Part shown: piece by piece, positions 4,888 through 63,637 of the stretch
How the letters are laid out: the number at the start of each line of letters is the position of its first letter
Position numbering within the stretch: position 1 is the stretch's first letter
Origin: Microbacterium sp. No. 7
GTDB lineage: Bacteria; Actinomycetota; Actinomycetes; Actinomycetales; Microbacteriaceae
Length of the DNA: 64,000 nucleotides
Assembly: GCF_001314225.1 (NCBI RefSeq)
Contig: NZ_CP012698.1
Location: 71,112 to 135,111 of the forward strand
Direction: 5' to 3'
The notes under the pieces: model-generated
The model's database searches: none
Seen by the model: the letters and a program-made list of their open reading frames with translations, nothing else
Told to the model about the DNA's origin: nothing
Made by a program: the position numbers and the translations under genes

Positions 4888-5112
4888 TCAGCTGCTGCGG
4901 AAGAAGTCGATCACGCTGATCACGAGCGCCCAGAGCAGCACGATCGCGACCGCGGTCAGCAGGATCTTGCCGATGTGCGGCCCGAGGATGATGCCGAGCC
5001 AGCCGGCGCCGACCGCGAGGCCGATCGTGAGCAAGCCGATGATGATCCGGCGCAGCCGGGTGAGGATCTCGTCGGGGATGTCCGCGTGCTTGCGCGGAGT
5101 CGCCAGGCTCAT
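4888..5112 (-). CDS. Small two-helix membrane protein (74 aa)
   Basis: The protein has a short basic N-terminus (RKHADIPDEILTRLRR) then two hydrophobic helices, about residues 24-43 and 50-70, separated by a GPHIGK turn. Its ATG overlaps the stop of the upstream gene (ATGA), so the two are coupled. Second gene of the operon under the backbone promoter module at 5.7 kb. No family recognised; a membrane partner in plasmid transfer or entry exclusion is conceivable but unproven. Confidence 0.75.
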   Translation of the reverse strand: MSLATPRKHADIPDEILTRLRRIIIGLLTIGLAVGAGWLGIILGPHIGKILLTAVAIVLLWALVISVIDFFRSS

Positions 5113-5688: not shown

Positions 5689-5737
5689 TTGTGTATCTGA
5701 CATGCACAACAATATTGCGGAGGTTAAGATGTGTCAA
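5689..5737 (-). promoter_or_regulatory. Repeated backbone promoter module, copy 1 (strongest -35)
   Basis: On the minus strand there is TTGACA (5732-5737), a 17-bp spacer and TATTGT (5709-5714). The -10 overlaps the palindrome TTGTGCAT-N5-ATACACAA at 5689-5709. The invariant half TGTCAGATACACAA begins at the expected transcription start. A Shine-Dalgarno and the ATG at 5666 follow. It drives the three-gene operon 5666-2527 and is the best consensus member of the family, which otherwise lies 48-58 kb away in this window. Confidence 0.88.
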
Positions 5738-50912: not shown

Positions 50913-51010
50913 GGGCACCCGTCCGGAGCCAACTCAGATGCGGATTGTCAGATACACAACTGGGAGGGCGGCACCACTGCGAACAGAGGATGCTCTACGG
51001 ACGGGTGCCC
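50913..51010. repeat. 13-bp inverted repeat around a decayed promoter module
   Basis: GGGCACCCGTCCG (50913-50925) and its exact complement (50998-51010) enclose TGTCAGATACACAA at 50946-50959, in plus orientation and followed by GGGAGG. The -10 position (ACTCAG) and the left palindrome arm are degenerate and no gene follows, so the module is probably dead. The 320-bp gap 50760-51082 holds nothing else I can support; it marks the return from island to backbone. Confidence 0.6.
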
Positions 51011-51082
51011 AGATCAGATGCTACCTGGTGAGCGTCGGAGCCCCTAGGTCGAACGGTCGCCGAGGGGGTCGTTTTCGAGGGG

Positions 51083-52780: not shown

Positions 52781-53449
52781 TCATCGAGTGCTCGGGCAGC
52801 GGGTGATTGCGCGATCGAGGGCGCTGCGATCGGCTGCGGAGATCTCGAGGGCGTAGTCGACGGCGACCTCGAGGTAACGGGTGGAGTAGGTGCAGGCGGC
52901 GGCGTCGCCGGCGGGCAGCCATTGGCTCGGGGTGCTGTCTCCCTTGCTCTGGTTGGCCGTGGTGGCTTGCAGGTTGGCCGGGTCGTTGGCGAACCGCTCG
53001 CGCTGCTCGGCGGTCCAGGAGTCGGCTCCCGATGACCAGGCGACGGCGAGGGGGATGATGTGGTCGATCTGCACGGGCTGGTAGCCCTCGCTGGTTCGGG
53101 TGAAGGTGACTGTCTCGCCGGTGAGCGGGTCGTGCAGGATGCCGGTCAGTGCGACGCAGTCGTTGGTGCCCGGCTTGTAGACGACGTCGACGAGATCGCG
53201 GCTGAGGATGTCGTTGCGGGTGTCGCACCCGTTGCGGTCGACGTCGGCCCAGCGGGGGCCGAACAGGTCGCGGGAGTAGCCCTCGGCCGCGGTGGCTGCC
53301 GGTGACGGCTGCGAGCTCGTCGACGTGGACGCGGGGAGCGGTGCGGGGGATGCGCCGGCGTCGACGCCGAGGTTCGTCAGCAGCAGCGCGGCGGCTGCTA
53401 CGACGCCGACGACGCCGGCTGCGGCGCCTGCGGTGCGGGTGAGCTTCAT
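52781..53449 (-). CDS. Secreted HNH-type (DUF1524-like) nuclease
   Basis: The ATG at 53449 follows GGGAGGT. A signal peptide or N-terminal anchor is evident (MKLTRTAGAAAGVVGVVAAA up to ~residue 33), then a Ser/Pro/Ala-rich linker and a nuclease domain with IDHIIPLAVAWSSGADSW and NDPANLQATTANQSKG, the H-N-N pattern of secreted DUF1524/HNH proteins common in actinobacteria. First gene of the operon under promoter copy at 53614, with a 165-nt leader. It may degrade extracellular or incoming DNA. Confidence 0.85.
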   Translation of the reverse strand: MKLTRTAGAAAGVVGVVAAAALLLTNLGVDAGASPAPLPASTSTSSQPSPAATAAEGYSRDLFGPRWADVDRNGCDTRNDILSRDLVDVVYKPGTNDCVALTGILHDPLTGETVTFTRTSEGYQPVQIDHIIPLAVAWSSGADSWTAEQRERFANDPANLQATTANQSKGDSTPSQWLPAGDAAACTYSTRYLEVAVDYALEISAADRSALDRAITRCPSTR

Positions 53450-53613: not shown

Positions 53614-53662
53614 TTGTGTATCTGACATGCACAACACTAGTCGCGCGGGAGAGGGTCGTCAA
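53614..53662 (-). promoter_or_regulatory. Promoter module at 53.6 kb
   Basis: TTGACG, 17 bp, TAGTGT, with the palindrome at 53614-53634 (upstream arm TTGTGCAT, invariant arm ATACACAA). The -35 overlaps the end of the Mom-like gene. Leaderless frame MSDTQHKSSG... stops after 21 codons; the first gene starts 165 nt downstream. Confidence 0.85.
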
Positions 53663-54579
53663 GCCCCGATTGGAATGCGCTGCATTAGGAGATCTCGCGC
53701 GGCTTTGGGGTAGGGCGTCTGCTCGAGCGCGATCAGCTGCCGGCGCCGTTGGCGGGCGGTGCCGAGCGCCCAGGCGTAGCGGTGGTTGCCGGGGTGGCGG
53801 ATCTTCTGCGTCCCGATCTCCTCGAGCGCTGTGCGCAGCCAGCTGCGGGCGTCCTCGTGTACTCGGCGTGCTCGCGCGCCGAGGGTCACCAGGTGTCGCT
53901 CTGCGGCGTCGGAGCCCTGCTCGCCGGTTCGGATCTTCGAGAGCGTGCGTTCCGAGAGCACGAGCCCTGCGGAGGGAACGTAGTTGATCGTGCGGGCGGT
54001 GGACCGGCCGAGGCTCACGGCGTTGGTGGCTTGGTAGATCACGCCGACGTGGCCGGGGGTGATCGTCTCGATGCGGGTGATCGGTTGGCCGTCCTCGTTG
54101 ACGTCAGCGACCGTGCGCTGCCGTTGCAGAGGGTCGGCGAAGGTGACGATCCCCCGGAGGCCGGCCGCGGCGGCCTGGCGCCAGACCTGTGCGAGGAACC
54201 ACGATTCGGCGTTCGCCGGCACGGCGTCGGTGAGCACGAAGCGGCCGAGCTCGAGCGATTCGGTGAACGGCTCGAGCTCGGGGAAGACGTTGGTGAGGAC
54301 GGCTGCTCGCATGGGCACCGACAGGACGGCGACGCCGACCAGGGGGCCGTCGTCGAAGAGGGTCTCGTCATCGGTAAACAGGCCCCACGCGAGGCGGGAG
54401 GCGGGGTAGGACGCGCTGTAGTGATGGCGGCATACGAATGCGCGCGCGACTGCCTCGGGGATCGCCGCGACGGTGAACCGCCGGCGATCGAACCCGCCTT
54501 CGGAGGCATGGCGCCAGGAGTGTCGGCCGAGCGTCCACCGCTGGCAGGCGGTGGACGTCGGCGAGGCCGGCTGGGGCAT
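53659..54579 (-). CDS. Mom-like DNA-modification protein (acyltransferase fold)
   Basis: The 306-aa protein from the ATG at 54579 carries the Mom pattern: FVCRHHYSASYPASRLAWGLF, LVGVAVLSVP, LELGRFVLTDAVPANAESWFLA, GIVTFADP and HVGVIYQATNAVSLGRS. Phage Mu Mom converts adenine to N6-methylcarbamoyl-adenine to resist restriction, and actinophages encode similar proteins. The gene overlaps DUF3846 upstream by ATGA, so the two are coupled. Longer than Mu Mom (about 240 aa) because of an extra ~70-residue C-terminal part with basic helices. The anti-restriction role is inferred. Confidence 0.8.
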   Translation of the reverse strand: MPQPASPTSTACQRWTLGRHSWRHASEGGFDRRRFTVAAIPEAVARAFVCRHHYSASYPASRLAWGLFTDDETLFDDGPLVGVAVLSVPMRAAVLTNVFPELEPFTESLELGRFVLTDAVPANAESWFLAQVWRQAAAAGLRGIVTFADPLQRQRTVADVNEDGQPITRIETITPGHVGVIYQATNAVSLGRSTARTINYVPSAGLVLSERTLSKIRTGEQGSDAAERHLVTLGARARRVHEDARSWLRTALEEIGTQKIRHPGNHRYAWALGTARQRRRQLIALEQTPYPKAARDLLMQRIPIGA

Positions 54580-54998
54580 CACGCGCTGAGTGTGCGGCGG
54601 ATGCTGTCGACCATCGAGTCGTCGACGTCGACGAAGTCGCCCGAGGCGTCATCGAACCCGACGATCACGACGTCGCCGACGAGCGGGCGCTTCGCGATCG
54701 CGCTGGCAAGGAGGTTCATCGGGAGGCGCTGGATCAGCCCCTCCTCGTTGGCGATGAGGTCGTGGCGGTCGTCGAGGCTGACGGTCTCGATGTAGCCGCC
54801 GACCGCGCGCTGGTAGTCCTCGAGCTCGGCGAACGCTGCGATCGCGAGCTCGCCGGTCGTCGTGATCAGCAGGCCCTTGGTGCCGGGCGCTTCGGTGGGC
54901 GCCGTGTACGTGTGGTTGTGCGAGCAGTTCGCTGTGGTGGTGGCGACCGTGCAGGTCGTGCCGTCGCTGTGGGTGGCGATCCAGGTCGTGATGGTCAT
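54579..54998 (-). CDS. DUF3846-family protein (139 aa)
   Basis: The C-terminal two thirds match DUF3846: LEDYQRAVGGYIETVSLDD, IANEEGLIQRLPMNLLASAIA, VGDVVIVGFDD. The ATG at 54998 follows GGAGGA. DUF3846 proteins are common on plasmids and phages, often near anti-restriction genes; function unknown. The leaderless MSDTQ frame of its promoter ends in a TGA that overlaps this ATG. Confidence 0.82.
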   Translation of the reverse strand: MTITTWIATHSDGTTCTVATTTANCSHNHTYTAPTEAPGTKGLLITTTGELAIAAFAELEDYQRAVGGYIETVSLDDRHDLIANEEGLIQRLPMNLLASAIAKRPLVGDVVIVGFDDASGDFVDVDDSMVDSIRRTLSA

Positions 54999-55015
54999 GG
55001 CATCCTCCATGTGTG

Positions 55016-55064
55016 TTGTGTATCTGACATGCACAACATTAGCAGCAGGGGCGGACGTCGGCAA
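55016..55064 (-). promoter_or_regulatory. Promoter module at 55.0 kb
   Basis: TTGCCG, 17 bp, TAATGT; palindrome 55016-55036 with upstream arm TTGTGCAT. Mini-ORF MSDTQHTWRMP ends in TGA overlapping the DUF3846 ATG (ATGA). Confidence 0.85.
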
Positions 55065-55109
55065 GGGGTCTGCAGCGGCAGGGGATCGACGGCGTGAGAC
55101 GATGCCGCG

Positions 55110-55601
55110 GTGACCACCACCCAGCACATCGGCGCAGCGGGCGAGCTGCTCGTGCAGTATCGGCTCCTCAAGCTCGGCATCGACTCGGCGAGGATGACGA
55201 CGGACTCCGGTATCGACCTGGTGGTCTACTCGCCGCTGCGCGCGGAGGCTGTCACCGTTCAGGTCAAGACCCAGACGGCTCCCTCTCCCTCGGGCGGCAA
55301 GGGCGCGCTGTCGGTCGGGTTCTACTTCCCCGACGACCTGCGGGCGGAGATCCTCGCATTGGCGCTGCTGTCTACCGATCAGGTGTGGCTGTTCACCCGA
55401 GACGAAGCGCGCGAACTCGCGCAGCAGCACAACGCGAAAGGCAACCGGCAGCTGTACTGGTACATGCAGCAGCGGCCGGCGCGAGGCCTCGGCCAGGCGC
55501 CGCTGCACGCCGGCGACGTCGAGCAGCACCTGCTCGAACGCTGCACGGCCGCTCTGTTCGTAGTGCCAGCGCCGGCGGTCGATGCGGATCAGCGTCGGTA
55601 G
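55110..55601 (+). CDS. PD-(D/E)XK-type nuclease-like protein (163 aa)
   Basis: The protein begins at a GTG and shows GAAGELLVQYRLLKLG (conserved Glu), TDSGIDLVVYS (Asp) and VTVQVKTQT (Q-x-K), the signature of restriction-endonuclease-like folds found in DUF4365 and Holliday-junction-resolvase-like proteins. It is one of the few plus-strand genes in this part and has no copy of the repeated promoter. It overlaps the convergent zinc-ribbon gene by 13 bp. Role in DNA processing or defence is inferred. Confidence 0.78.
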   Translation: MTTTQHIGAAGELLVQYRLLKLGIDSARMTTDSGIDLVVYSPLRAEAVTVQVKTQTAPSPSGGKGALSVGFYFPDDLRAEILALALLSTDQVWLFTRDEARELAQQHNAKGNRQLYWYMQQRPARGLGQAPLHAGDVEQHLLERCTAALFVVPAPAVDADQRR

Positions 55602-55810
55602 GGGCCGCTCGTCGCAAGTTGTCCGATCCGGGCAACTGCGATCGGCGTGGGGCGGCTGAGCGGTGAGCGGGTGGATTGAGTGGGCCGGACGGCATCCTCG
55701 GCGGGGCCTTCGATCTCGAACCCGCACTCGCAGCTGTACAGGCCGACGTCCGGGACGTCGGTGGAGGGAAGGTACATAACCTTCGGCTGGCCGCAGATCA
55801 GACAACGCAT
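55589..55810 (-). CDS. Zinc-ribbon protein (73 aa)
   Basis: MRCLICGQP and YSCECGFE give two cysteine pairs (CxxC and CxC) in a short zinc-ribbon, with a disordered tail. The ATG at 55810 has AAGGAGGA upstream and is under its own promoter module. Function unknown; such ribbons are common in phage and plasmid genomes. Confidence 0.8.
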   Translation of the reverse strand: MRCLICGQPKVMYLPSTDVPDVGLYSCECGFEIEGPAEDAVRPTQSTRSPLSRPTPIAVARIGQLATSGPYRR

Positions 55811-55830
55811 GATGATCCTCCTTGAGCTAG

Positions 55831-55879
55831 TTGTGTATCTGACATACACAACACTAGCAGACCGAGCGGACGAAGGGAA
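55831..55879 (-). promoter_or_regulatory. Promoter module at 55.8 kb (perfect palindrome)
   Basis: TTCCCT, 17 bp, TAGTGT; the palindrome at 55831-55851 is perfect (TTGTGTAT-GTCAG-ATACACAA on the minus strand). The upstream ~30 bp resemble those of the dprA module (TCCGC...TCTGCTA). Mini-ORF MSDTQLAQGGSSCVV stops 14 nt inside the zinc-ribbon gene. Confidence 0.87.
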
Positions 55880-56185
55880 GCGGATCTGCTGGCGCTCGAG
55901 GCGCTGCCTATCCAGCGGCCGCCGTGGTGTTCGCGCCGCCGTAATGCGGGCGGAGGTCTTCGCGGGCGAAGGCGATGCGGAAGGGGCGGGGGCGGCGGTG
56001 TCAGGGGCGCCGCCCCCGCCGGCAGCGGGCCGGGTGGAGGACGAAAGGGCCGGCTGCCATCGACGGGCGAGCGGCGAGCGGCGAGCGCTCATCAGGCTGC
56101 GTGTTGGCGCCCGTCCTGCCGGGGGGATCGACCTGGTGGTGCGATCCCCGCGGGTCTGGGGGTCTGTGGTTGCCCTGCTATGAGG

Positions 56186-56234
56186 TTGTGTATCTGACAT
56201 ACACAACACTAGTGCATGTCGGGGGATGCTGCAA
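56186..56234 (-). promoter_or_regulatory. Promoter module at 56.2 kb without a conventional gene (gap 55811-56257)
   Basis: TTGCAG, 17 bp, TAGTGT and a perfect palindrome (56186-56206) make one of the better promoters, yet no Shine-Dalgarno plus start codon follows before the next module 330 bp away. The only frame is the leaderless one (MSDTQPHSRATTD...), Pro-, Arg- and Ala-rich, running in phase through the next module into the zinc-ribbon gene. It may make an untranslated RNA, an unusual protein, or be a relic. Confidence 0.75.
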
Positions 56235-56257
56235 CCCCTGTGGTGGTGGTCGGGGGT

Positions 56258-56632
56258 TCAGGTGCGCAGCTGCGCGCGGGTGTGAGGGGCGGGGCTGTGC
56301 AGGATGCGGGTGAGCGTGCGCGCGGTGCGCGCCCACTTGCGGATGCCGAACGCGGGGATGAGCAGCAGCGGGATGCCGGCGGCCGCGGCAGGCCAGGAGA
56401 GCAGCCCGAACGCGCCGAGGAGCACGATGCCGCCGAGGATGTGCCAGGTGATCATCGAGGCCGCGTGTCGGCGAGCTCGAGCGGCGCGGTGCAGGATGTC
56501 GCCGTGTGAGGCGATCGGGGCCTTGCGGATGTGGCGGCGCCACAGCAGCAGCGCGAGAAGCGCGGCGAGCCAGAGCAGCAGCAGCGCGGGCGTCGCGAGG
56601 GCGAGCGGGTCGAGGTTCTGCGGGTTTCCCAT
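56258..56632 (-). CDS. Membrane protein with two to three helices (124 aa)
   Basis: Helices at about residues 14-31 and 60-98 (the second segment long enough for two spans, separated by SWPAAAAG) flank a basic loop (RRHIRKAP). The ATG at 56632 follows GGAGAGGACACCCCC. It is the second gene of the dprA operon, 59 bp downstream, with a strong hairpin in the gap. No family recognised. Confidence 0.72.
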   Translation of the reverse strand: MGNPQNLDPLALATPALLLLWLAALLALLLWRRHIRKAPIASHGDILHRAARARRHAASMITWHILGGIVLLGAFGLLSWPAAAAGIPLLLIPAFGIRKWARTARTLTRILHSPAPHTRAQLRT

Positions 56633-56657
56633 GGGGGTGTCCTCTCCGGGCTGTGGT

Positions 56658-56686
56658 GCGGGGGCCGGCGGGTGGCCGGCCCCCGC
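56658..56686 (-). other. Intercistronic hairpin (dprA / membrane protein)
   Basis: Perfect 12-bp GC stem (56658-56669 with 56675-56686, 5-nt loop) in the gap between the two genes of a module. No T-run follows, so partial attenuation or RNA stabilisation is more likely than full termination. Confidence 0.65.
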
Positions 56687-56691
56687 GGTCC

Positions 56692-57618
56692 TCAGCGTCC
56701 GAGCAGTTCGTAGGCCTCGTCGGCGCTGGTGACCAGGTGGGCGTCGGCCTCGCGGATGAGGCGGTGGCATCCGGTGGATGCGGCGGACGTGATCGGGCCG
56801 GGGACCGCGCCGATGGTGCGCCCGAGGGTCGCGGCGTGGTTCGCGGTGGTGAGCGACCCCGACCGGGCGCCGGCCTCGACGACGACGGTCGCGGCGGTGG
56901 TCGCGGCGATCAGTCGGTTGCGAGCGAGGAAGCGCCAGCGGGTAGGTGCCGCGCCGGGGGCGACCTCGCTGGCGATCGCGCCGCCGCGATCGGCGATCCG
57001 GGCGATCAGGTCGCTGTTCCCGGCGGGGTAGGGGCGGTCGGCTCCGCCGGCCAGCCAGGCGACGGTGGACCCGCCTGCGGCGAGCGCTGCGCGGTGAGCG
57101 GCGGCGTCGATGCCGTAGGCGGCGCCGCTGACGATGACGATGCCGCGGCCGGCGAGGTCGGCGGCGATCTCGGCGGTGACGTGCTCGCCGTAGCTGGTGG
57201 CGGCGCGGGCTCCGATCAGGGCGAGCCGGTCGCTCAGGTCGCGGGTGAGGGGGGTGAGGGTGCCGCGCGCCCAGATGACGTGCGGGGCGGCGTCGCCGAG
57301 GTCGCTGAGGCCGGGGATGGTGGCCGGGTCGATCAGGGTGATGCCGTGGCGGGCGGCGAGCGCGAGGGCCTCGTCGATGTGGCGGGGGTTGTGGCGGGGC
57401 AGCCAGCGGGCGGCGGCTTGTGTGGCCTCGTCGGCGTCGATGTCTGCCGCGGTGAGGGCGGCGAGGAGGGTGTCGCGGCCTGCGGCGAGCGCCTCGAGGG
57501 CGGTGGTGTGGCCGGCGTGGCGGGTGAGGGCTCCGGCGGTGGCGTCGCCGGGCTCGGTGATCGTCGACCAGGCGGCGCGGGCCTCGAGGGCGGTGGCGGT
57601 GGTGAGTGTGGTGTTCAT
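56692..57618 (-). CDS. dprA: DprA/Smf-family DNA-processing protein (308 aa)
   Basis: The Rossmann-like DprA core is clear: ALIGARAATSYG, GIVIVSGAAYGIDAAAH, DRPYPAGNSDL, RFLARNRLIAATTAATVVVEA, ARSGSLTTANHAATLGR, PGPITSAASTGCHRLI. A helical N-terminal region (~110 residues) precedes it; the C-terminal winged domain is absent. DprA loads RecA on incoming single-stranded DNA; a plasmid copy could help the plasmid establish after conjugation. The ATG at 57618 has GGAGGA; the leaderless frame of its promoter is in phase and would add 11 residues (MSDTQHVREDD). Confidence 0.93.
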   Translation of the reverse strand: MNTTLTTATALEARAAWSTITEPGDATAGALTRHAGHTTALEALAAGRDTLLAALTAADIDADEATQAAARWLPRHNPRHIDEALALAARHGITLIDPATIPGLSDLGDAAPHVIWARGTLTPLTRDLSDRLALIGARAATSYGEHVTAEIAADLAGRGIVIVSGAAYGIDAAAHRAALAAGGSTVAWLAGGADRPYPAGNSDLIARIADRGGAIASEVAPGAAPTRWRFLARNRLIAATTAATVVVEAGARSGSLTTANHAATLGRTIGAVPGPITSAASTGCHRLIREADAHLVTSADEAYELLGR

Positions 57619-57636
57619 GTCGTCCTCCCGAACGTG

Positions 57637-57685
57637 TTGTGTATCTGACATACACAACAGTAGCAGATTGGGCGGACAAAGGGAA
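57637..57685 (-). promoter_or_regulatory. Promoter module at 57.6 kb (dprA)
   Basis: TTCCCT, 17 bp, TACTGT, perfect palindrome 57637-57657. The leaderless MSDTQ frame is in phase with dprA. Confidence 0.87.
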
Positions 57686-57774
57686 GCGGATGCCCGCAGG
57701 GGTTTCGTGCTCGAGCGCTCGAGCTCGAGCGAGGAGGGGGGCGCCCGCCGGGGATGCGGCGAGCGCCCGCTTGC

Positions 57775-57990
57775 CTAGTCGTCTGTCTCGGTGGTCCGGG
57801 CGAGGGTGTCGATGATCAGGGTGCCGTCGCTGGTGGGAGCGGTGACGGTCGAGATCAGAGCGAAGCCGCGGCGGCCGTAGTCGTCGAGATCCTGCATCCG
57901 GTAGGAGATGTTGTTGTTGTTGGCGGGCTGGCCCTCTTTGGTGTCGTAGATCCGAGTGGAGATCGACTCGTAGGTGACCTTGGTTGTCAT
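57775..57990 (-). CDS. Small hypothetical protein (71 aa)
   Basis: The protein reads MTTKVTYESISTRIYDTKEG and ends TLARTTETDD; beta-rich and acidic. The ATG at 57990 follows TAGGAGGAGCC. The mini-ORF of its promoter ends exactly at the TAG that overlaps this Shine-Dalgarno. No family recognised. Confidence 0.75.
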   Translation of the reverse strand: MTTKVTYESISTRIYDTKEGQPANNNNISYRMQDLDDYGRRGFALISTVTAPTSDGTLIIDTLARTTETDD

Positions 57991-58010
57991 GGCTCCTCCT
58001 AGTGACTGTG

Positions 58011-58059
58011 TTGTGTATCTGACATACATAACAGTAGCACTTGCCGCCGACATTGGCGA
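58011..58059 (-). promoter_or_regulatory. Promoter module at 58.0 kb
   Basis: TCGCCA, 17 bp, TACTGT; palindrome 58011-58031 with one mismatch (upstream arm TTATGTAT). The mini-ORF is 8 codons, MSDTQHSH, then TAG. The upstream block ATGTCGG lies 28 bp from the invariant TGTCAG. Confidence 0.84.
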
Positions 58060-58160
58060 GCACCGGGATAGGGGTGCTGCCTCATATAGGCCGGGGCTGG
58101 CACCCCTCCCGGACATGGGAGGTTCCGGTGCGGGCGGGCGGAGGTTCCGCCGCGTCGGTG

Positions 58161-58331
58161 TCACGCGGCGAGCGCAGCGTGGCAGTCGGTACAGACCTCC
58201 GTTCGGGTGTGCTTGGGATCGGCGGTGTCGAGGATCGTCACGACGTAGCCGTTGGCGTCCTGGTCGCCGCACTCGGCGCACACCAGAGGGCCGGTTGCGG
58301 CGAGCGCGGCGGTGGTGTCGGTGGTGGTCAT
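58161..58331 (-). CDS. Small zinc-ribbon protein (56 aa)
   Basis: MTTTDTTAALAATGPLVCAECGDQ ... TEVCTDCHAALAA carries two CxxC pairs 32 residues apart, a compact treble-clef or zinc-ribbon pattern. The ATG at 58331 follows GGAG. Second gene of its module, 58 bp after the preceding stop, with a 12-bp hairpin in the gap. Confidence 0.72.
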   Translation of the reverse strand: MTTTDTTAALAATGPLVCAECGDQDANGYVVTILDTADPKHTRTEVCTDCHAALAA

Positions 58332-58353
58332 TGGGCTCCGTCCGGGTCGGTGG

Positions 58354-58384
58354 CCCTGGCGGGGCGTTGTGTGCCCCGCCAGGG
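58354..58384 (-). other. Intercistronic hairpin (58.4 kb module)
   Basis: Perfect 12-bp stem 58354-58365 / 58373-58384 with a 7-nt loop (GTTGTGT on plus), in the gap between the two genes of this module. Confidence 0.65.
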
Positions 58385-58389
58385 GTGGG

Positions 58390-58899
58390 TTAGACCCGCT
58401 CCGTGCTGATGATCGACACGTCGAAGCTCTCGCTCCCGTTGTCGCGGTAGGCGGCGATCACATCGTCGATGTCGATCCCGTCGCGGGCGTTCTCGTCGGC
58501 GTCGTCCTCCGTCGTGGCGCTCGTGGAGTAGGTGAGGCGAACGGTCACGGTGACCTCGGCCTCGACCTCCCAGTCGCGGTGTCGGGGGGTGCCGTTCATC
58601 GCCTCGGCGAGACGGTCGTACTCCTGGCAGAAGTCGGCGTGATCGGCGATCCGGCCCGCCTTGTCCCAGAAGTCGATCAGGCGGGGGTCCGACCCGTCCG
58701 TGATCTGCTCGGTGCGAAGCCGCTCGATCTCGCGCTCGCGCTCGGCGACCTGCGCGCGGGCCTGCTCGAGCTCGGAGTGAGCTCGAGCCAGCTCGCCGGC
58801 GAACGCGCCGCGGCGGTCGGTGACCGGCGGGGTGCCGGGGAAGGTCAGGGGGCCTTCCGCGATCCCGCTGGCCGGGGCGGTGATGGTGATGTCAGTCAT
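58390..58899 (-). CDS. Hypothetical coiled-coil protein (169 aa)
   Basis: The ATG at 58899 overlaps the TGA of the promoter's mini-ORF. A heptad-rich helix (FAGELARAHSELEQARAQVA EREREIERLR) is followed by a beta-rich acidic half (EVEAEVTVTVRLTYSTSATT). No family recognised. First gene of a two-gene module. Confidence 0.75.
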   Translation of the reverse strand: MTDITITAPASGIAEGPLTFPGTPPVTDRRGAFAGELARAHSELEQARAQVAEREREIERLRTEQITDGSDPRLIDFWDKAGRIADHADFCQEYDRLAEAMNGTPRHRDWEVEAEVTVTVRLTYSTSATTEDDADENARDGIDIDDVIAAYRDNGSESFDVSIISTERV

Positions 58900-58919
58900 A
58901 TCGTCCTCCCTTGAACGTG

Positions 58920-58968
58920 TTGTGTATCTGACATACACAACACTACGCGAGGGGTCCGACATTGGCAG
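58920..58968 (-). promoter_or_regulatory. Promoter module at 58.9 kb
   Basis: CTGCCA, 17 bp, TAGTGT, perfect palindrome 58920-58940. Upstream ATGTCGGACC is 28 bp from TGTCAGATAC. Mini-ORF MSDTQHVQGRTI ends in a TGA overlapping the ATG of the coiled-coil gene. Confidence 0.87.
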
Positions 58969-59015
58969 GAGACGCGCGGACACCGACCCGGCAGGGGCCG
59001 GCATCCGCGCGGCGG

Positions 59016-59543
59016 CTAGCGCATGCCGCTGTCCACGCTGTCTGCCAGCCACGCGGCGGCGTTGAGCATGTCGTGCGCGGCCTCGATCTCGGCGTCGTTG
59101 CTGTCACCCTCGGCGGCGGCGTTGAGGTTCGCGATCCCCTCGCGGACGTCCGCCACCTGCACGCTGAGGGTGCCGAACGCTGCGCGTGCGGCTTTGGCCA
59201 TGAGGGCGCGCACGGTGTGCGCGTCGATCGGCTGCGCCCGCAGTGCGAGGGCGAACGTTTCGGCGTCGCCGTACCCGGCGGCGATCACGGCATCCGCGAT
59301 CTGCTGCGCGGACTCGGGCGCGCCCTGCACCAGGATCGAGTCGGGCGCGGACGGCCCGCGAAACGCTCCGGGCGCGTCGTGCCGCTCGGGGTCGCCGTCG
59401 TACAGGGGCGGGCCGTCGTTGAGGTTCACGCGCAGCCATCCGGCATCCTGCGCGGTGTCGATCTGCACCACCGGCACGCCGTCGCGCTGGCCTCGGTAGT
59501 GGGTCACGGTGATGCCCTCGGCGGGCGTCAGCTGGTCGGTCAT
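59016..59543 (-). CDS. Hypothetical protein (175 aa)
   Basis: The protein has a beta-rich N-terminus (ITVTHYRGQRDGVPVVQIDT) and a helical C-terminus rich in Ala and Asp (IEAAHDMLNAAAWLADSV). No family recognised. It follows the DUF4192 gene by 57 bp with a hairpin between, so it is the distal gene of that module. Confidence 0.72.
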   Translation of the reverse strand: MTDQLTPAEGITVTHYRGQRDGVPVVQIDTAQDAGWLRVNLNDGPPLYDGDPERHDAPGAFRGPSAPDSILVQGAPESAQQIADAVIAAGYGDAETFALALRAQPIDAHTVRALMAKAARAAFGTLSVQVADVREGIANLNAAAEGDSNDAEIEAAHDMLNAAAWLADSVDSGMR

Positions 59544-59565
59544 GGTGTCCTCGGTGAGGTCCGGG

Positions 59566-59591
59566 CCGCACCCTCCCGGGGGAGGGTGCGG
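59566..59591 (-). other. Intercistronic hairpin (DUF4192 module)
   Basis: Perfect 12-bp stem CCGCACCCTCCC/GGGAGGGTGCGG (59566-59577, 59580-59591) with a 2-nt loop, in the gap between the DUF4192 gene and its distal partner. Confidence 0.65.
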
Positions 59592-59600
59592 CGTTCAGGG

Positions 59601-60605
59601 TCAGCGCGAGAACGCGAACTCGGGCAGGTGACCGGCATCCACGAACGTCCGCACGATCTGCGACAGTCCGTGCTCGGAGTCGATCGCCAGCGCGCGACGC
59701 GCGTAGGCGTCGGCGTGGGTGGAGCGCCCCAGCGCCCAGGACAGCCACGCGGCGGCCGCCAGCGGCCCCACCTGCGCCTCCTCGGGCGAGAGGGCCGCGA
59801 CGTACCGGCAGGCCGTTAGAGCGGCGTCCAGACGCTTCGGGTCCGGGCGCGGCCCCTCACCCCACATGACCCGCGCCAGGTGCGCCGGGTACTTTTCGCC
59901 CTGCTCCCAGCCGATCTGCGCGTCCAGCGCGCTCTCACCGGCGGCGAAACCGTGCGCCCACTGCACCAGGGCGATATCGCGCGTCGCGGGCCGGTTCAGC
60001 ATCGCCGACAGCAGCGCCACCGCGCCCGCCTCGAGGTCCGACCCATCCCAGGACAGCGCCTGCTCGATCGCGTCCAGCAGATCGCCGCCCGCCATCGCCA
60101 GCGCCACCGGCAGGTCGGTCGGCAGAGCCTCCGCGACCTGAGCCGCCAGCGCCTCGTCGACGGTGGGGAGCGTCGCCCCGGCGCGCTGGTCGGAAGCGGT
60201 CAGCATCGCCGCCAGGTGCGCGGGAGTCTCCGGCAGAGCCTCGGTCCCGTCCTCGCCGATGCGGCCCCAGGCGTCCCCGGCGACGTACAGCCGGTCGATC
60301 ATCTGCATCCCGCACATGTCGGCCTGCATGGCGATCGCCGAACCGACCGCCTCGGCCTGCTCGCGCTCGCCGTAGACGATCAGAGCGACGCCGGTGGCGT
60401 TCTCGACCTTGCACAGCAGGCCCATCGCCACCGCGGCGAACGAGCCGGCGTTCTCGACGGCGGGAACGTCGAAGCGCATGGCGCCGATCGTGCGAGTGCC
60501 AGCGAACGGCACCGCGACGACCGACTCGGTGGGGCGGTAGCCCAGCATCGCCGGGACCGCCGTGAGGAAGTCGCCCGCTCCGGTTGCTTTGTGGATGGTG
60601 GTCAT
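59601..60605 (-). CDS. DUF4192-family protein (334 aa)
   Basis: The N-terminus FLTAVPAMLGYRPTESVVAVPF is the hallmark of DUF4192, and the length matches the family, which is widespread in actinobacteria and their plasmids. Helical repeats (GPLAAAAWLSWALGRSTHADAYARRALAID) at the C-terminus resemble TPR-like helices. Function unknown. The ATG at 60605 has GGAGGA; first gene of its module. Confidence 0.88.
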   Translation of the reverse strand: MTTIHKATGAGDFLTAVPAMLGYRPTESVVAVPFAGTRTIGAMRFDVPAVENAGSFAAVAMGLLCKVENATGVALIVYGEREQAEAVGSAIAMQADMCGMQMIDRLYVAGDAWGRIGEDGTEALPETPAHLAAMLTASDQRAGATLPTVDEALAAQVAEALPTDLPVALAMAGGDLLDAIEQALSWDGSDLEAGAVALLSAMLNRPATRDIALVQWAHGFAAGESALDAQIGWEQGEKYPAHLARVMWGEGPRPDPKRLDAALTACRYVAALSPEEAQVGPLAAAAWLSWALGRSTHADAYARRALAIDSEHGLSQIVRTFVDAGHLPEFAFSR

Positions 60606-60624
60606 CTCGTCCTCCTAAGACGTG

Positions 60625-60673
60625 TTGTGTATCTGACATACACAACACTAGTCGATGCGATGACGATTCGCAA
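60625..60673 (-). promoter_or_regulatory. Promoter module at 60.6 kb
   Basis: TTGCGA, 17 bp, TAGTGT, perfect palindrome 60625-60645; drives DUF4192. It is divergent from the plus-strand gene at 60744 and only ~70 bp from that gene's promoter, so the two could interfere. Confidence 0.86.
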
Positions 60674-60693
60674 CCTTTCCACTGCGCTCGGCG

Positions 60694-60745
60694 GATACTT
60701 CTATCTATTGCGCTTTAGTTCCGTCTATGTGATACTTCTATCTAT
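60694..60745 (+). promoter_or_regulatory. Leaderless promoter with 15-bp direct repeats
   Basis: TTGCGC (60708-60713), 17 bp, GATACT (60731-60736), then 7 nt to the ATG at 60744, with no Shine-Dalgarno: the layout of an actinobacterial leaderless promoter. The 15-mer GATACTTCTATCTAT occurs at 60694-60708 and 60731-60745, covering the -35 edge and the -10/start, so a bound protein would block transcription. Confidence 0.7.
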
Positions 60746-61271
60746 GAGCGCATATCCGTGGGTATTTGAACCGAACGATCTCGTCCTCTTCGTCTGGCCT
60801 CGTCAGCACGAGACGCTCCGCCGAGCCGGCGGGTCTGTGGTCTCTCCGCAAGAGGCTGCGAGCGAGGCGTGGGCAATGGACGCAGCCAAGGCGGAGCGCG
60901 TCCGCATCCTCGTGTCCGTCTTTGAGGGAACGATCGTCGGCGCATGGGCGGTCAGCGGGGTTACCAACGAACTGCGAGCGCCCGAGGGGAAGACCCGGCG
61001 GGTGAATCGCGCGAGCTTCGAGACGCACGACGATCCGCGTCTGCACTATCTGACGGGGCGGGCATCGCAGCTCGGCCCGCGCAGGAACCCGCAGGCGACT
61101 ATCGAGATCCGTGACCTCGATGGCAGCGACATGCTCCTGGAAGACCCGGTAGACGTCCCTGCGCATGGTGTGGCGCGGGTGGGCGAGTATGTGCTGTCGG
61201 TCCTCGAGGACGGCTCCGCGACCCTGACCTACCCGGCATCGGCGCCGGTGACTCTGCGACCGGTCGCGTAG
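60744..61271 (+). CDS. Hypothetical protein on leaderless mRNA (175 aa)
   Basis: The protein opens MSAYPWVFEPNDLVLFVWPR and is beta-rich (VRILVSVFEGTIVGAWAVSG, GEYVLSVLEDGSATLTYP). No family recognised. It is one of the few plus-strand genes in the array, is divergent from DUF4192, and has its own repeat-flanked promoter; a regulatory or sensing role is possible but no DNA-binding motif is obvious. Confidence 0.72.
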   Translation: MSAYPWVFEPNDLVLFVWPRQHETLRRAGGSVVSPQEAASEAWAMDAAKAERVRILVSVFEGTIVGAWAVSGVTNELRAPEGKTRRVNRASFETHDDPRLHYLTGRASQLGPRRNPQATIEIRDLDGSDMLLEDPVDVPAHGVARVGEYVLSVLEDGSATLTYPASAPVTLRPVA

Positions 61272-61372
61272 GCCGCCTGCCGCGCTCGCCGCGGCCGATT
61301 GCCAGGCATGCGGGGATGCCCCACCGGTGTCGATCCCGGCGGGCATCCGAGCCGCGCGTCAGCGGCCCCGGG

Positions 61373-61714
61373 CTAGTCCTCCCATGACCGGCGTGGGGCG
61401 AAGTGGAACCGCTCTGCACCTTCGTTGTGGGCGAGATCCTCGGCGCGGGCTCGGTACTCCTCATCGCTAAGCCGGGAGCCGTGGCCGTTGGCCCAGGGGA
61501 GCGGGTCGCGGTCGCCCTCGGTTTCGCCCTCCCAGACCTCGCGGATGATGTGGTCGGCGGTGTCGTGTTCGTGCAGCGCGTCGAACAGCGCTGCCAGAGT
61601 GAAGCCCTCGCCCATGTTGATCCGGTTGAGCACTTCTTCCGAGTTCCAGTAGCCGACCATCTGCGCGGCCTCGGTGATGACCTCGCGGTCGATCTCGACG
61701 GTGACAGTTGCCAT
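61373..61714 (-). CDS. Hypothetical protein (113 aa)
   Basis: The protein begins MATVTVEIDREVITEAAQMV and contains LHEHDTADHIIREVWEGE and LPWANGHGSRLSDEEYRARA; helical and acidic. The ATG at 61714 follows GGAGGG at short spacing. No family recognised. Single-gene module. Confidence 0.74.
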   Translation of the reverse strand: MATVTVEIDREVITEAAQMVGYWNSEEVLNRINMGEGFTLAALFDALHEHDTADHIIREVWEGETEGDRDPLPWANGHGSRLSDEEYRARAEDLAHNEGAERFHFAPRRSWED

Positions 61715-61728
61715 GATCCCTCCATCTG

Positions 61729-61777
61729 TTGTGTATCTGACACCTATAACTCTATGGGCGGGGTCCGACATTGCACC
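61729..61777 (-). promoter_or_regulatory. Promoter module at 61.7 kb (degenerate upstream arm, GTG)
   Basis: GGTGCA, 17 bp, TAGAGT; invariant TGTCAGATACACAA kept but the other arm is TTATAGG, so the palindrome is lost. The predicted start codon position is GTG. Upstream ATGTCGGACC is present at 28 bp. Confidence 0.82.
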
Positions 61778-61788
61778 GGCCCCGGGTG

Positions 61789-61822
61789 GAGCGCCCCGCT
61801 TGATCGGATCGGCGGGGCGCTC
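61789..61822 (-). terminator. Module terminator hairpin (61.8 kb)
   Basis: 11-bp stem GAGCGCCCCGC/GCGGGGCGCTC, 12-nt loop, between the stop of the gene at 61828 and the next promoter. Same stem core as at 62456 and 63089. Confidence 0.72.
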
Positions 61823-61827
61823 GCGAC

Positions 61828-62382
61828 TCACGCGGCGTAGGTGCAGGGCACCTGCTGGCCGTGGTGCCAGCCGTCGCACTCGATGCGCCCGAGCTTGCGG
61901 GCGTCGTTCCGGCATGCGCGGCGGGCGTCGGCTTCCTCGGCGTCGATGCGCGAGGCGTGCAGCGCCTCGATGTGTTCCAGCTTCCCGGTGAACCCGTCGT
62001 GATCCGGCAGGCCCGCAACGGCCCACAGGCGCGCGCACAGGCCGAACCCCTCGTGTGAGAGCGGGGCGCGCTCTGCGGCCGCCAGCAGGCCGATCACGAC
62101 CTCTACAGCGGTGCCCGGGCGGGTGTCCTGCCCGTGCGCGACCCTCTCGAGAATCTCCCGCGCGTGCGCCCGGTAGACCGCCTCTACGCTCATCCGCTCG
62201 GCGGCGTCGCCACCGCTGAGCAGCGAGAACGAGTGATAGATCGCGTCAGCCTGCTCGGGGTGCCTGCTCGCCGCCTGCGCGATCTCGTCCTCGGCCCAGC
62301 CGATCCGGTCGAAGATCGCCCCGAAGCTGAGCTCGAAGCTCGCCAGGATCTCCGCTGCCGTGTCCGTCGTCGTGGTGCTCAT
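61828..62382 (-). CDS. Hypothetical protein (184 aa)
   Basis: Helical protein: LASFELSFGAIFDRIGWAED, AVYRAHAREILERVAHG, GLCARLWAVAGLPDHDGF. The C-terminus contains two cysteines and ends HGQQVPCTYAA. The ATG at 62382 follows GGAGGAT; the leaderless MSDTQHMEDA frame is in phase and would add 13 residues. No family recognised. Confidence 0.74.
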   Translation of the reverse strand: MSTTTTDTAAEILASFELSFGAIFDRIGWAEDEIAQAASRHPEQADAIYHSFSLLSGGDAAERMSVEAVYRAHAREILERVAHGQDTRPGTAVEVVIGLLAAAERAPLSHEGFGLCARLWAVAGLPDHDGFTGKLEHIEALHASRIDAEEADARRACRNDARKLGRIECDGWHHGQQVPCTYAA

Positions 62383-62397
62383 CGCATCCTCCATATG

Positions 62398-62446
62398 TTG
62401 TGTATCTGACACACACAACAATAGGCGGAGCCTCCGACATTGGCAC
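62398..62446 (-). promoter_or_regulatory. Promoter module at 62.4 kb (GTG variant)
   Basis: GTGCCA, 17 bp, TATTGT; palindrome 62398-62418 with one mismatch (TTGTGTGT). The start position is GTG and the frame is in phase with the gene. Confidence 0.84.
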
Positions 62447-62455
62447 GGAGACGGA

Positions 62456-62487
62456 AGCGCCCCGCCTGCTCGCGCGGGCGGGGCGCT
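62456..62487 (-). terminator. Module terminator hairpin (62.5 kb)
   Basis: 11-bp stem AGCGCCCCGCC/GGCGGGGCGCT, 10-nt loop, between the gene at 62501 and the next promoter. Confidence 0.72.
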
Positions 62488-62500
62488 CGGGTGGGGGAGA

Positions 62501-62998
62501 TCAGCAGATCTCGAACCCCCCGCAGTGGCGCAGGAATGCCGCGAACTCGCGCACGTTCTCCACGTCGAACGGGTAGGACTTGCCGAAGTGCTCGCGGCGG
62601 CCGGTCCCGGCGCAGCCGTTGCATCCGCCCTTGCCCGTGTCGGGGTCGCGCGGCTTGTCGTAGCCGTACTCCCGGCCGATGGCGTCGGTGCGCAGGCCCG
62701 TGCCCTGGCACAGGTCGCACTCGCTGTCCGGCAGTGCGCTCAGCTCGGCGGCGTACTGATCGGCGTAGGCCGTCACGCGCCCGCTGGCGAGGTCACGGTC
62801 CAGCGCGTCGGCCAGGGCCACGGACGCGGCCGCGTCGAGCCCGTCACCGTCGTTGCTCTGCCAGTGGATGCACCCGGCGGTGAGGTCCGGGTAGGTCGTG
62901 GTCAGGAACTCGGCGAGCGGGTGCCACCACCACACGTTGTTGCGGAAGTAGCCGCCGACCTCGGCGGTGGCGTTCTTGCCGTAGACGTCCATTCCCAT
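62501..62998 (-). CDS. Hypothetical protein with CxxCxGxG zinc motifs (165 aa)
   Basis: The protein begins MGMDVYGKNATAEVGGYFRN, an opening seen in phage and plasmid proteins of unknown role, with WWHPLAEFLTTTYPDL after it. In the C-terminal half CDLCQGTGLR and CNGCAGTGRR form a DnaJ-type zinc-binding pair. The ATG at 62998 follows GGAGGA. Possibly a chaperone-like or nucleic-acid-binding protein; not established. Confidence 0.78.
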   Translation of the reverse strand: MGMDVYGKNATAEVGGYFRNNVWWWHPLAEFLTTTYPDLTAGCIHWQSNDGDGLDAAASVALADALDRDLASGRVTAYADQYAAELSALPDSECDLCQGTGLRTDAIGREYGYDKPRDPDTGKGGCNGCAGTGRREHFGKSYPFDVENVREFAAFLRHCGGFEIC

Positions 62999-63018
62999 GA
63001 TGTCCTCCTAAAGACATG

Positions 63019-63067
63019 TTGTGTATCTGACACACACAACATTAGGAGGGGGGTCGGACATTGGCCG
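63019..63067 (-). promoter_or_regulatory. Promoter module at 63.0 kb (GTG variant)
   Basis: CGGCCA, 17 bp, TAATGT; palindrome 63019-63039 with one mismatch. Upstream ATGTCCGACC at 28 bp from TGTCAG. Confidence 0.84.
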
Positions 63068-63088
63068 GGGGCCGCTGGGTAGATGCAG

Positions 63089-63120
63089 AGCGCCCCGCCG
63101 GATGATCCCGGCGGGGCGCT
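63089..63120 (-). terminator. Module terminator hairpin (63.1 kb)
   Basis: 13-bp stem AGCGCCCCGCCGG/CCGGCGGGGCGCT with a 6-nt loop, just after the stop of the gene at 63134. Third copy of this terminator type. Confidence 0.74.
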
Positions 63121-63133
63121 GGCGGCGGGGTTT

Positions 63134-63571
63134 CTACCGGGTGCCGTCGAGGCCGTTGACCAGCCAGAGCGCCGCGGCCGCGAGATCCCCACCGCCTCCG
63201 AGCGCAGCGCGCACCGCCGCAACGCTCGCCGCGAGGTCCGTGGGCACCAGCCCGGACACGCGAGCGCGTGCGGCCTGGTACTCGCCGCCCACGTACACGT
63301 CGAGGCTCTGCCCCGCCTCGTCGGCATCGCGGGTGTCCCACTCCTGCAAGACCTCGGCGCGCGATCCCGGATGGCGGCGGGTGATGTCCTTTGTGAGGTC
63401 GTAGATCCCCTCGGCCTCGTACTTCGAGTGCCCGGTGATCTGCCAGCCCTCGCCGTCTCGATCCACGGCCTGATCCATCATGTCGAGCCCTGCCCGGTCG
63501 ATCGCCTTCCGCAGTCTCTTCTCCGTCAGCTTCGGCGCCTCGGTGATCGTGATGACGTTCCACGTAGACAT
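63134..63571 (-). CDS. Hypothetical protein (145 aa)
   Basis: MSTWNVITITEAPKLTEKRL opens an alpha/beta protein with EGWQITGHSKYEAEGIYDLTKDI and a C-terminal Ala-rich helical half (LAASVAAVRAALGGGGDLAAAALW). The C-terminal part resembles that of the 59016 gene product (short Ala/Asp helices ending in ALWLVNGLD), hinting at a shared domain. The ATG at 63571 follows GGAGGA. No family recognised. Confidence 0.74.
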   Translation of the reverse strand: MSTWNVITITEAPKLTEKRLRKAIDRAGLDMMDQAVDRDGEGWQITGHSKYEAEGIYDLTKDITRRHPGSRAEVLQEWDTRDADEAGQSLDVYVGGEYQAARARVSGLVPTDLAASVAAVRAALGGGGDLAAAALWLVNGLDGTR

Positions 63572-63588
63572 TGCTGTCCTCCCTTGTG

Positions 63589-63637
63589 TTGTGTATCTGA
63601 CACCTGAAACACTAGAGGCTGGGTCAGACACTGGCCG
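63589..63637 (-). promoter_or_regulatory. Promoter module at 63.6 kb (degenerate arm, GTG)
   Basis: CGGCCA, 17 bp, TAGTGT; the invariant 14-mer is intact but the other arm is TTTCAGG. Upstream GTGTCTGACC at 28 bp. Predicted start is GTG. Confidence 0.82.

Follow-up and report, generated by a model that had tools for sequence, protein, structure and literature searches.

The terminal 64 kb of contig C2 of Microbacterium sp. No. 7 (referred to here as the window) carries an array of small genes whose promoters share a 14-nucleotide repeat, TGTCAGATACACAA, hereafter called the tag. C2 is 135,111 bp long, is one of three contigs in a genome of 4.83 Mb, and is evidently a plasmid. A sequence-only reading of this DNA had listed 13 copies of the tag, and every one of them is an exact match. 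The same reading placed all copies on the minus strand; this is true of those 13, but a fourteenth exact copy lies on the plus strand at 50946-50959, and it has neither a promoter of this type nor the left arm of the palindrome found at the others. When up to three mismatches are allowed there are 19 matches against 1.35 expected, a number reached in 0 of 100 shuffles. The full replicon, the genome and related plasmids have been searched, as the reading had proposed. All 14 exact copies in the 4.83 Mb fall in the window part of C2, with none on the other two contigs.

The promoters of the 13 minus-strand copies have a common architecture. The -10 element conforms to TAnnGT in all 13 and to TAnTGT in 12, as had been described. 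It keeps a single distance of 13 nt in 13 of 13, which puts the predicted +1 at the G of GTCA, so that the invariant half of the repeat is the transcribed half. The invariance of this sequence and its position at the predicted +1 had both been recognized, but the core extends to 15 nt (TGTCAGATACACAAC, in all 14 copies) instead of 14. The palindrome that was claimed around it is good in most C2 sites but uneven: the right half is constant in all copies, whereas the left arm is variable, with weak versions at 61729 and 63589, although the register alignment, read by eye, shows a mirror image of the right arm at 11 of the 13 sites. What had been called a variable -35 at 17-bp spacing resolves into two classes, one with TGTCNG exactly 10 nt before TAnnnT (7/13) and one with TTG-N16..18 (5/13), and the copy at 55831 belongs to neither. 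A Shine-Dalgarno-like stretch follows the tag in 13 of 13 cases and a start codon in 11, the exceptions by eye being 53614 and 56186.

What, then, is the lone copy on the opposite strand? Read along the minus strand, its surroundings have the order TAGCAT, 7 nt, GGGCACCCGTCCG ... GCCCTCCCAGTTGTGTATCTGACA ... CGGACGGGTGCCCTTTT, and the two ends pair as a stem. The middle of this predicted RNA is the reverse complement of the leader tag, adjoining a complement of the Shine-Dalgarno sequence. The segment 50913-51010 folds with a z-score of -5.27, and 0 of 200 shuffles are equally stable; Rfam has no family match there at E<=1. The loop sequence UGACA is the complement of UGUCA, which stands at the predicted start of every array mRNA, and the RNA pairs with its targets over 14-15 contiguous bp in 13 of 13 cases. 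Among 140 gene-start windows, the longest Watson-Crick run with this RNA is 13-16 in 11, all of them tagged, and at most 9 in the other 129. Perfect 10-bp stems of similar span are not rare in these GC-rich plasmids, with 43 in C2, so the stem alone is unconvincing, and the weight comes from its recurrent coincidence with an antisense tag. The features are collected in Table 1.

Table 1. Leader tags, array genes and the predicted antisense RNA locus, in window coordinates.
Feature	Position	Strand	Promoter or evidence	Gene or remark
Leader tag	5689..5702	-	TTGACA-N17-TATTGT, sigma-type promoter	gene 5109-5666 downstream
Antisense RNA gene (predicted, 98 nt)	50913..51010	-	TTTT after stem	between two predicted genes
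Closing stem, 13 bp	50998-51010 with 50913-50925		GGGCACCCGTCCG/CGGACGGGTGCCC	
Anti-Shine-Dalgarno segment of antisense RNA			GCCCTCCCA	
Anti-leader segment of antisense RNA			GTTGTGTATCTGACA	TGACA in apical loop
Fourteenth 14-mer copy	50946..50959	+		minus-strand reading is the seed of the antisense RNA
-10 box of antisense RNA	51018..51023	-	TAGCAT	starts 13 nt upstream of stem
Leader tag	53614..53627	-	TTGACG-N17-TAGTGT	HNH nuclease-like gene 52781-53449 starts 165 nt past 14-mer end
Mom-like DNA-modification protein	53659..54579	-	PF25680 E 5.1e-24; phrog_1384 E 1.5e-30	
Leader tag	55016..55029	-		precedes DUF3846 gene 54579-54998; then Mom-like gene
Leader tag	55831..55844	-	neither TTG -35 nor TGTCNG box	small gene 55589-55810
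Leader tag	56186..56199	-		transcript without clear open reading frame; conserved leader
DprA-family protein	56692..57618	-	PF02481 E 4.5e-62; TIGR00732 203.2 bits (cut-off 191.15)	
Leader tag	57637..57650	-	TGTCCG box	DprA-family gene 56692-57618
Leader tag	58011..58024	-	-26 box TGTCGG	gene 57775-57990
Leader tag	58920..58933	-	-26 box TGTCGG	gene 58390-58899
Leader tag	60625..60638	-	TTGCGA-N17-TAGTGT	DUF4192 gene 59601-60605
Leader tag	61729..61742	-	weak left arm; -26 box TGTCGG	gene 61373-61714
Leader tag	62398..62411	-	-26 box TGTCGG	gene 61828-62382
Leader tag	63019..63032	-	TGTCCG box	gene 62501-62998, family common to plasmids of several actinobacterial families
Leader tag	63589..63602	-	weak left arm; TGTCTG box	gene 63134-63571, last predicted before contig end

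It is likely that a single plasmid-encoded antisense RNA of about 98 nt (50913-51010, minus strand) acts in trans on the 13 tagged mRNAs and represses their translation. The earlier proposal of one regulator or leader mechanism for all modules is supported to this extent, with the evidence favouring an antisense RNA over a protein bound to the palindrome. In the mechanism proposed, each array mRNA would start 5'-GUCAGAUACACAAC, and the RNA would fold as a closed junction with UGACA in the apical loop. The loop would meet the first nucleotides of the mRNA and pairing would spread to the full contiguous helix; in most versions of the RNA, a CCUCC segment just before the seed would then cover the Shine-Dalgarno sequence, so that translation is blocked. 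UGUCA is the part of the tag common to the different classes and the exact complement of the loop, which suggests that it makes the first contact and that the diverging remainder provides specificity. Related plasmids would carry the same RNA with another seed and a matching leader and would therefore avoid silencing each other in one cell. The tags, the RNA locus, the conserved fold and the matching of seed to leader can be read from the DNA; from these we infer that the RNA is transcribed and that it represses.

Is the same device found on other plasmids? Contig C3 (93,808 bp), from the same cell, has nine tagged promoters with the tag GTCAAGTCA(A/G)CTAA. The plasmid pYJNG of Microbacterium sp. 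YJN-G, which in a tblastn comparison broadly resembles C2, and an M. paraoxydans plasmid have 19-25 tagged promoters each, with the tag GTCACATTCAC. There is one antisense locus, with the plasmid's own tag in antisense, in each of pYJNG, M. paraoxydans, C3 and the Curtobacterium plasmid pC1b. In pYJNG the antisense continues through TGTCACATTCACCAACGATCC...GAGGAGGAGCC, which comes near to a typical leader including the ribosome-binding site, and in the pC1b RNA the order is swapped, the Shine-Dalgarno complement coming after the seed. Since these five loci (C2, pYJNG, M. paraoxydans, C3 and pC1b) were found via the tag, their seeds match their tags by construction.

A search that did not depend on the tag was made with a covariance model (R1), built from four tag-found loci of which two are nearly identical. 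Of 366 genomes of the genus, 20 gave a match to the model at E<=0.1, although the match on a 2.46-Mb contig (29 bits) is probably a chance hit. Eleven further contigs were examined, four that repeat the pYJNG/M. paraoxydans seed on other contigs being left out, and ten of the 11 carry a matching repeated leader, the exception being G594. Taken together, 15 of the 16 contigs examined carry a repeated leader that matches their own seed. New seeds come from G552, G557a (the same as G594), G418 and G463; the others repeat seeds of the model, and for those contigs seed likeness may have aided detection. A family-wide covariance search of 398 genomes with about ten candidates scored per genome returned only the genome of strain No. 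7, but that set held only nine genomes of the genus, so that the genus search, with 11 candidates per genome, carries the weight. A degenerate-dyad search of the 398 family genomes returned the same genome and one stray. R1 missed the pC1b RNA, which is known through its tag, and it had no match in M. paulum, where tagged leaders are present.

The predicted-target 12-mer of each seed was counted on every contig, the counts including the RNA locus itself. Counts on the contig that carries the seed are 14 for C2, 5 for C3, 20 for pYJNG, 21 for M. paraoxydans, 3 for pC1b, 4 for G557a, 7 for G557b, 6 for G575, 5 for G516, 4 for G489, 11 for G584 and 4 for LCT-H2. On foreign contigs the counts are zero, except for one copy of the pC1b element each on G463 and G594. 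G552, G418 and G463 have no exact 12-mer target but 7, 14 and 2, respectively, with a single difference, each a G-U pair in RNA, while the 6-kb contig G594 has no target on its own contig. Over 15 plasmids or contigs (G594 left out, and the self-antisense sites C3 12043 and pC1b 3120 excluded) there are 132 targets, not all of them independent because pYJNG and M. paraoxydans sites are homologous. TAnnnT stands at 11-16 nt in 129 of the 132, a Shine-Dalgarno-like stretch follows in 126, and a start codon is also present in 114.

The departures from perfect pairing have a marked pattern. With up to three mismatches allowed and a -10 element required, there are 140 sites with 111 substitutions from perfect complementarity, of which 88 preserve a wobble pair (88 of 90 transitions), although these substitutions are not independent. 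When only distinct changes at positions 1-11 are counted per seed class, a hand tally finds that 9 of 12 keep G-U pairing. Across nine plasmids, with G-U pairs counted, the plasmid's own RNA gives the longest helix in eight, including one tie (G557a with G552); in the ninth, C2, the leaders pair over 14 bp with their own RNA and over 15 with the G557b RNA, which has the same seed. Seeds differ between plasmids, including the co-resident C2 and C3. For RNAs that share a cell, the longest helix is 5-8 bp between C2 and C3 and 7 bp between the two G557 RNAs, and such non-cross-pairing seeds are what compatible neighbours would need.

The fold itself is conserved. Comparison of 18 RNAs (17 model matches and pC1b; 15 distinct sequences) shows UGACA fully unpaired (5/5) in the apical loop in all 18 and TAnnnT 12-15 nt before the stem in all 18. 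Both sides have changed in 10 of 22 pairs, a covariation score that 0 of 500 shuffles reach, and 93.8% of cells are paired against 30-48% (47.5% at most) when the partners are slid; the alignment, having been fitted to the model, is biased in its favour. In 13 of the 18 RNAs the 35 nt that precede the loop contain CCUCC or CUCCU.

Several observations weigh against control by an antisense RNA. Three of the 12 distinct core changes in the hand tally break a pair. In G552, G418 and G463 no target agrees with the seed throughout the core, one position being different in all of them (a wobble in each case, with further mismatches in G463), and when Watson-Crick pairs alone are considered, the own RNAs of these three are no better than foreign ones. 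Crude duplex energies (RNAduplex) fail to separate the C2 targets from other gene starts, and by the same measure pC1b leaders score better with some foreign RNAs. Cover of the Shine-Dalgarno sequence is not universal, since five of the 18 RNAs lack CCUCC/CUCCU before the loop: G594 and G557a have no such segment, G575 and G463 have just UCCU, and pC1b has UUCCUUU after the loop only. In several relatives the stem is followed by a weak U-tract or by none. The leaders repeated in plasmids of Gordonia and Promicromonosporaceae differ in sequence, and the antisense RNA was not found there: in four Gordonia plasmids all exact and one-mismatch matches to the leader complement are array sites and R1 gave none, and in the Xylanimonas and Cellulosimicrobium plasmids the search was made with R1 only. 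Finally, C2 and pYJNG have a near-palindromic left arm for which an antisense RNA does not account and which could be a protein operator.

This last point bears on the alternative that survives best, namely that the antisense RNA acts on the mRNA while a protein, repressor or activator, acts on the promoter half of the dyad. The left arm lies upstream of the predicted +1 and is predicted to be untranscribed, so it should drift, yet it matches the right arm in the 11 C2 sites mentioned above and in most pYJNG sites, which would fit a DNA-binding partner. Left-arm conservation is not found in all plasmids, however, and no candidate protein is tied to it; two layers of control are thus conceivable but rather doubtful. 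It is unlikely that the RNA instead activates or stabilizes the tagged mRNAs by protecting their 5' ends. Pairing at the predicted extreme 5' end could hinder decay that depends on that end, and the five RNAs without an anti-Shine-Dalgarno segment before the loop would be compatible with such a role, but the other 13 have the segment beside the seed, where it would block access to the ribosome-binding site.

Could a protein account for the repeat by itself? A plasmid-encoded repressor of all modules, bound to the near-palindrome TTGTGTAT-GTCAG-ATACACAA at the start site in the manner of a phage or plasmid regulon, would be in keeping with the good dyad at most C2 sites and in pYJNG, and several plasmid proteins with a helix-turn-helix (HTH)-like domain exist, although none is linked to the site. 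Against it, a fixed right half stands beside a variable left arm in C2; in M. paraoxydans, sites chosen by the box alone keep the right arm ATTCAC in 17 of 17, and by eye C3, G552 and pC1b have a weak dyad or none. The lone opposite copy consists of the right half only and sits inside a folded RNA locus, and 9 of the 12 distinct core changes in the hand tally preserve G-U pairing. These points make a protein acting alone quite improbable. Antisense RNA is preferred over a protein operator because conservation falls on the transcribed half, the single opposite-strand copy belongs to a folded RNA gene, seed and leader covary between plasmids, and their disagreements are mostly G-U pairs. That the repeat is a recombination or cassette-insertion site with the RNA-like locus as its relic is hardly credible: the tagged genes do behave as separate modules whose content differs between plasmids, but -10, tag and ribosome-binding site keep their order, the -10 keeps its spacing, seed and tag covary between plasmids, and the RNA fold is kept by compensatory changes.

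A protein operator had also been pursued as the main explanation, and a shared regulator was sought among C2, C3, pYJNG, M. paraoxydans and pC1b; this line was set aside on the strength of the antisense locus. The GntR gene of pYJNG (2229-2741) has no counterpart in C2 by tblastn. The end gene g2, preceded by a tag-like site in C2 and by a tag in pYJNG, has an HTH match below threshold. A degenerate tag, TACTGTTGTGTATGTCACATGCACTCAA, occurs at C2 1895-1930 (contig coordinates, minus strand), outside the window, before an end operon with an HTH-like gene.

Which factor might switch the tagged genes on? Mycobacterial DNA damage promoters that are independent of LexA and RecA and dependent on PafBC have the P1 consensus tTGTCRgtg-8nt-TannnT (PMC5656591), and PafBC acts at a -26 promoter motif and is activated by single-stranded DNA (PMC11804915). 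Part of the tagged promoters have the same box and spacing. The strict form TGTCRG, 10 nt before TAnnnT, is present at four of the 13 C2 targets and the looser TGTCNG at the seven noted above; a PafBC-type box (TGTCNG-N10-TAnnnT) is absent from the remaining six. Across the 132 targets, TGTCNG-N10 occurs in 75 and TTG-N16..18 alone in 48. The published consensus has a purine after TGTC (PMC5656591), whereas here only 47 of the 75 loose boxes do. The same source describes chromosomal repair genes as the mycobacterial targets, in contrast to the plasmid accessory genes with an added antisense layer proposed here.

The host encodes a PafC-type protein (PF19187, 108 bits), and the same model matches 5 of 14 control genomes, over the cut-off in 3 of 14. 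In the whole genome the strict box occurs 18 times (C1 11, C2 3, C3 4) against 0 for the reversed pattern. One strict box lies 161 nt before the recA start codon (ATG), and another precedes a gene whose start appears to resemble SbcD. There is thus good reason to infer that PafBC controls part of the array, namely four to seven of the 13 promoters. The genes would then fire on plasmid entry or damage through the host PafBC, which senses single-stranded DNA and DNA damage, and would be shut off once the RNA accumulates. A plasmid-free recipient holds no antisense RNA and part of the promoters are PafBC-like; together these suggest a role at entry.

The content of the array loosely fits such a role, with Mom-like, DprA-family, DUF3846 and DUF4192 proteins in C2 and ArdC-like proteins in relatives. 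An anti-restriction role is possible for the Mom-like protein. The DprA-family protein (56692-57618, minus strand) also matches PADLOC ShosA (7.3e-48), and five of ten array proteins scanned have no match in Pfam. The sequence-only reading had spoken of backbone modules; the tagged genes are small, mostly of unknown function and clustered near the contig end, but they are not replication or transfer genes. VirB4/TcpF-like and TraB/FtsK-like proteins in C2 are all below model cut-offs.

Some members of the array have features of their own. The 56186 tag is followed by a long leader (55900-56199, minus strand) that aligns with pYJNG 97871, M. paraoxydans 153407 and 80354, and C3 4744; in the pYJNG and M. 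paraoxydans counterparts an annotated gene begins about 277 nt downstream. The segment is a candidate structured leader or RNA, conceivably an RNA sponge, and Rfam has no match at 55900-56199. Relatives of the small protein encoded at 62501-62998 occur in genomes of Proteobacteria, Gemmatimonadetes and Omnitrophota; with 24 loci in total, the distribution is far wider than plasmids. Inside the array, a plus-strand open reading frame (about 60745-61263, read by eye) is untagged and runs opposite to the tagged genes. Elsewhere, a three-gene element with identical proteins is found at C2 17768-21305 and 38767-42304 and at C3 19772-23309, probably owing to recent transposition in the strain.

The arrays tend to lie near the ends of records. 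Matches to the 62501-62992 protein are less than 8 kb from the record end in 7 of 7 plasmid records with a match, and in pYJNG and M. paraoxydans the relatives of the DUF4192 protein are within about 10 kb of it, although Arthrobacter-type matches are not all so placed. The ends of C2 and C3 have short inverted repeats, CCTGCGGATG..GCGCTGCGCGCC, and four of the relatives are labelled linear, others circular; because of these repeats and labels, C2 is probably linear. A Tpg-like terminal-protein match reaches 27.8 bits, below the cut-off of 90. In the C2 contig of G552, tagged promoters at 938 and 2641 are duplicated in inverted orientation at 125837 and 127540, at both contig ends, which suggests long terminal inverted repeats. 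The Gordonia arrays also lie near record ends, each with five TGTCGG..TAnTGT boxes and a shared leader with AGTTCCGRTGAG. In the homologous arrays of the Cellulosimicrobium and Xylanimonas plasmids a different leader is repeated (GACCAACC..GGCCGACCACC and variants), and the TGTCNG-N10-TAnnnT box is absent.

How does the proposed RNA compare with known systems? To our knowledge, the plasmid antisense RNAs RNAI, CopA, FinP and Sok, which serve in replication, transfer or killer systems, have one target each and are usually encoded opposite it. The RNA described here would resemble them as a small, folded, plasmid-specific RNA that pairs with mRNA and can block translation, but it is encoded apart from its targets and is predicted to act on 13 tagged leaders. 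Small RNAs of the OmrA/OmrB and RyhB type make short partial pairings with unrelated leaders, often with Hfq. They too are single RNAs with many targets that pair near the Shine-Dalgarno sequence; unlike them, the C2 RNA would recognize one common tag at the predicted 5' end through 14-15 bp. The RNAII of pMV158 is likewise a plasmid-encoded antisense RNA that pairs with mRNA (PMC4485353). In the open-access literature (titles and the beginnings of abstracts, with no subscription papers), no plasmid-wide antisense RNA of this kind was found, nor any paper on a linear plasmid, Microbacterium and small RNA.

Linear plasmids may be transferred end first. Conjugative plasmids are described whose leading regions carry Frpo/ssi single-strand promoters (PMC11541004). 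These regions resemble the array in being a block of small, partly anti-restriction-like genes (Mom-like here, ArdC-like in relatives) with proposed early expression on entry (PMC11541004). Unlike them, the array stands at the end of a probably linear plasmid.

A parallel may exist in mycobacteriophages. Cluster K phages, according to PMC3203893, have a 13-bp start-associated sequence of unknown function before many gene starts, with 11-19 copies per genome, and Anaya, Adephagia, Angelica and CrimD each have a single reversed copy that is not at a gene start. The C2 tag had been said to be unlike such sequences, and this is borne out: the Cluster K sequence GGGATAGGAGCCC, just before start codons, is not matched by the tag and differs from it in both sequence and position. 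In that source it overlaps the ribosome-binding site, whereas the tag stands at the predicted 5' end; the shared feature is a set of gene-start copies with one copy in opposite orientation (PMC3203893).

The reversed copy of Adephagia forms a hairpin loop (record about 58661-58713). By blastn this locus is present in 128 phage records, and in many of those listed it coincides with a gene annotated as a hypothetical protein. Of 8 phages compared, 6 retain the loop CCUCCUAUCC, DarthP and SirPhilip differing, and the Niklas window folds otherwise by itself. A hand alignment of seven phages (SirPhilip left out; ten stem positions) has 69 of 70 cells paired, with compensatory changes. No promoter was seen at the hairpin. 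The start-associated sequences of DarthP, expected to follow its changed loop, keep the usual repeats, and the loop matches none of them. As a lead from this analysis, it is possible that the reversed sequence is the loop of an antisense RNA hairpin, which suggests a specific candidate answer to the unexplained start-associated sequences of Cluster K.

A wider function can be proposed tentatively, and with clearly less confidence than the antisense RNA itself: a switch for both timing and immunity. Entry of single-stranded DNA would activate PafBC, and a recipient free of the RNA would make establishment and anti-defence proteins at once. The RNA would subsequently silence these genes, together with those of a newcomer of the same plasmid, and seeds would diversify where plasmids share a cell; Cluster K phages may share this logic through their reversed-copy hairpin. 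Whatever its timing, the prediction is that a single RNA governs a plasmid regulon by means of a 5' tag common to the mRNAs, and eight seed classes with matched seeds and tags are known. Two pairs, C2 with C3 and the two of G557, share a cell without cross-pairing. This provides a testable view of how actinobacterial plasmids may time the expression of their accessory genes, part of which would be tied to the single-stranded DNA sensor of the host.

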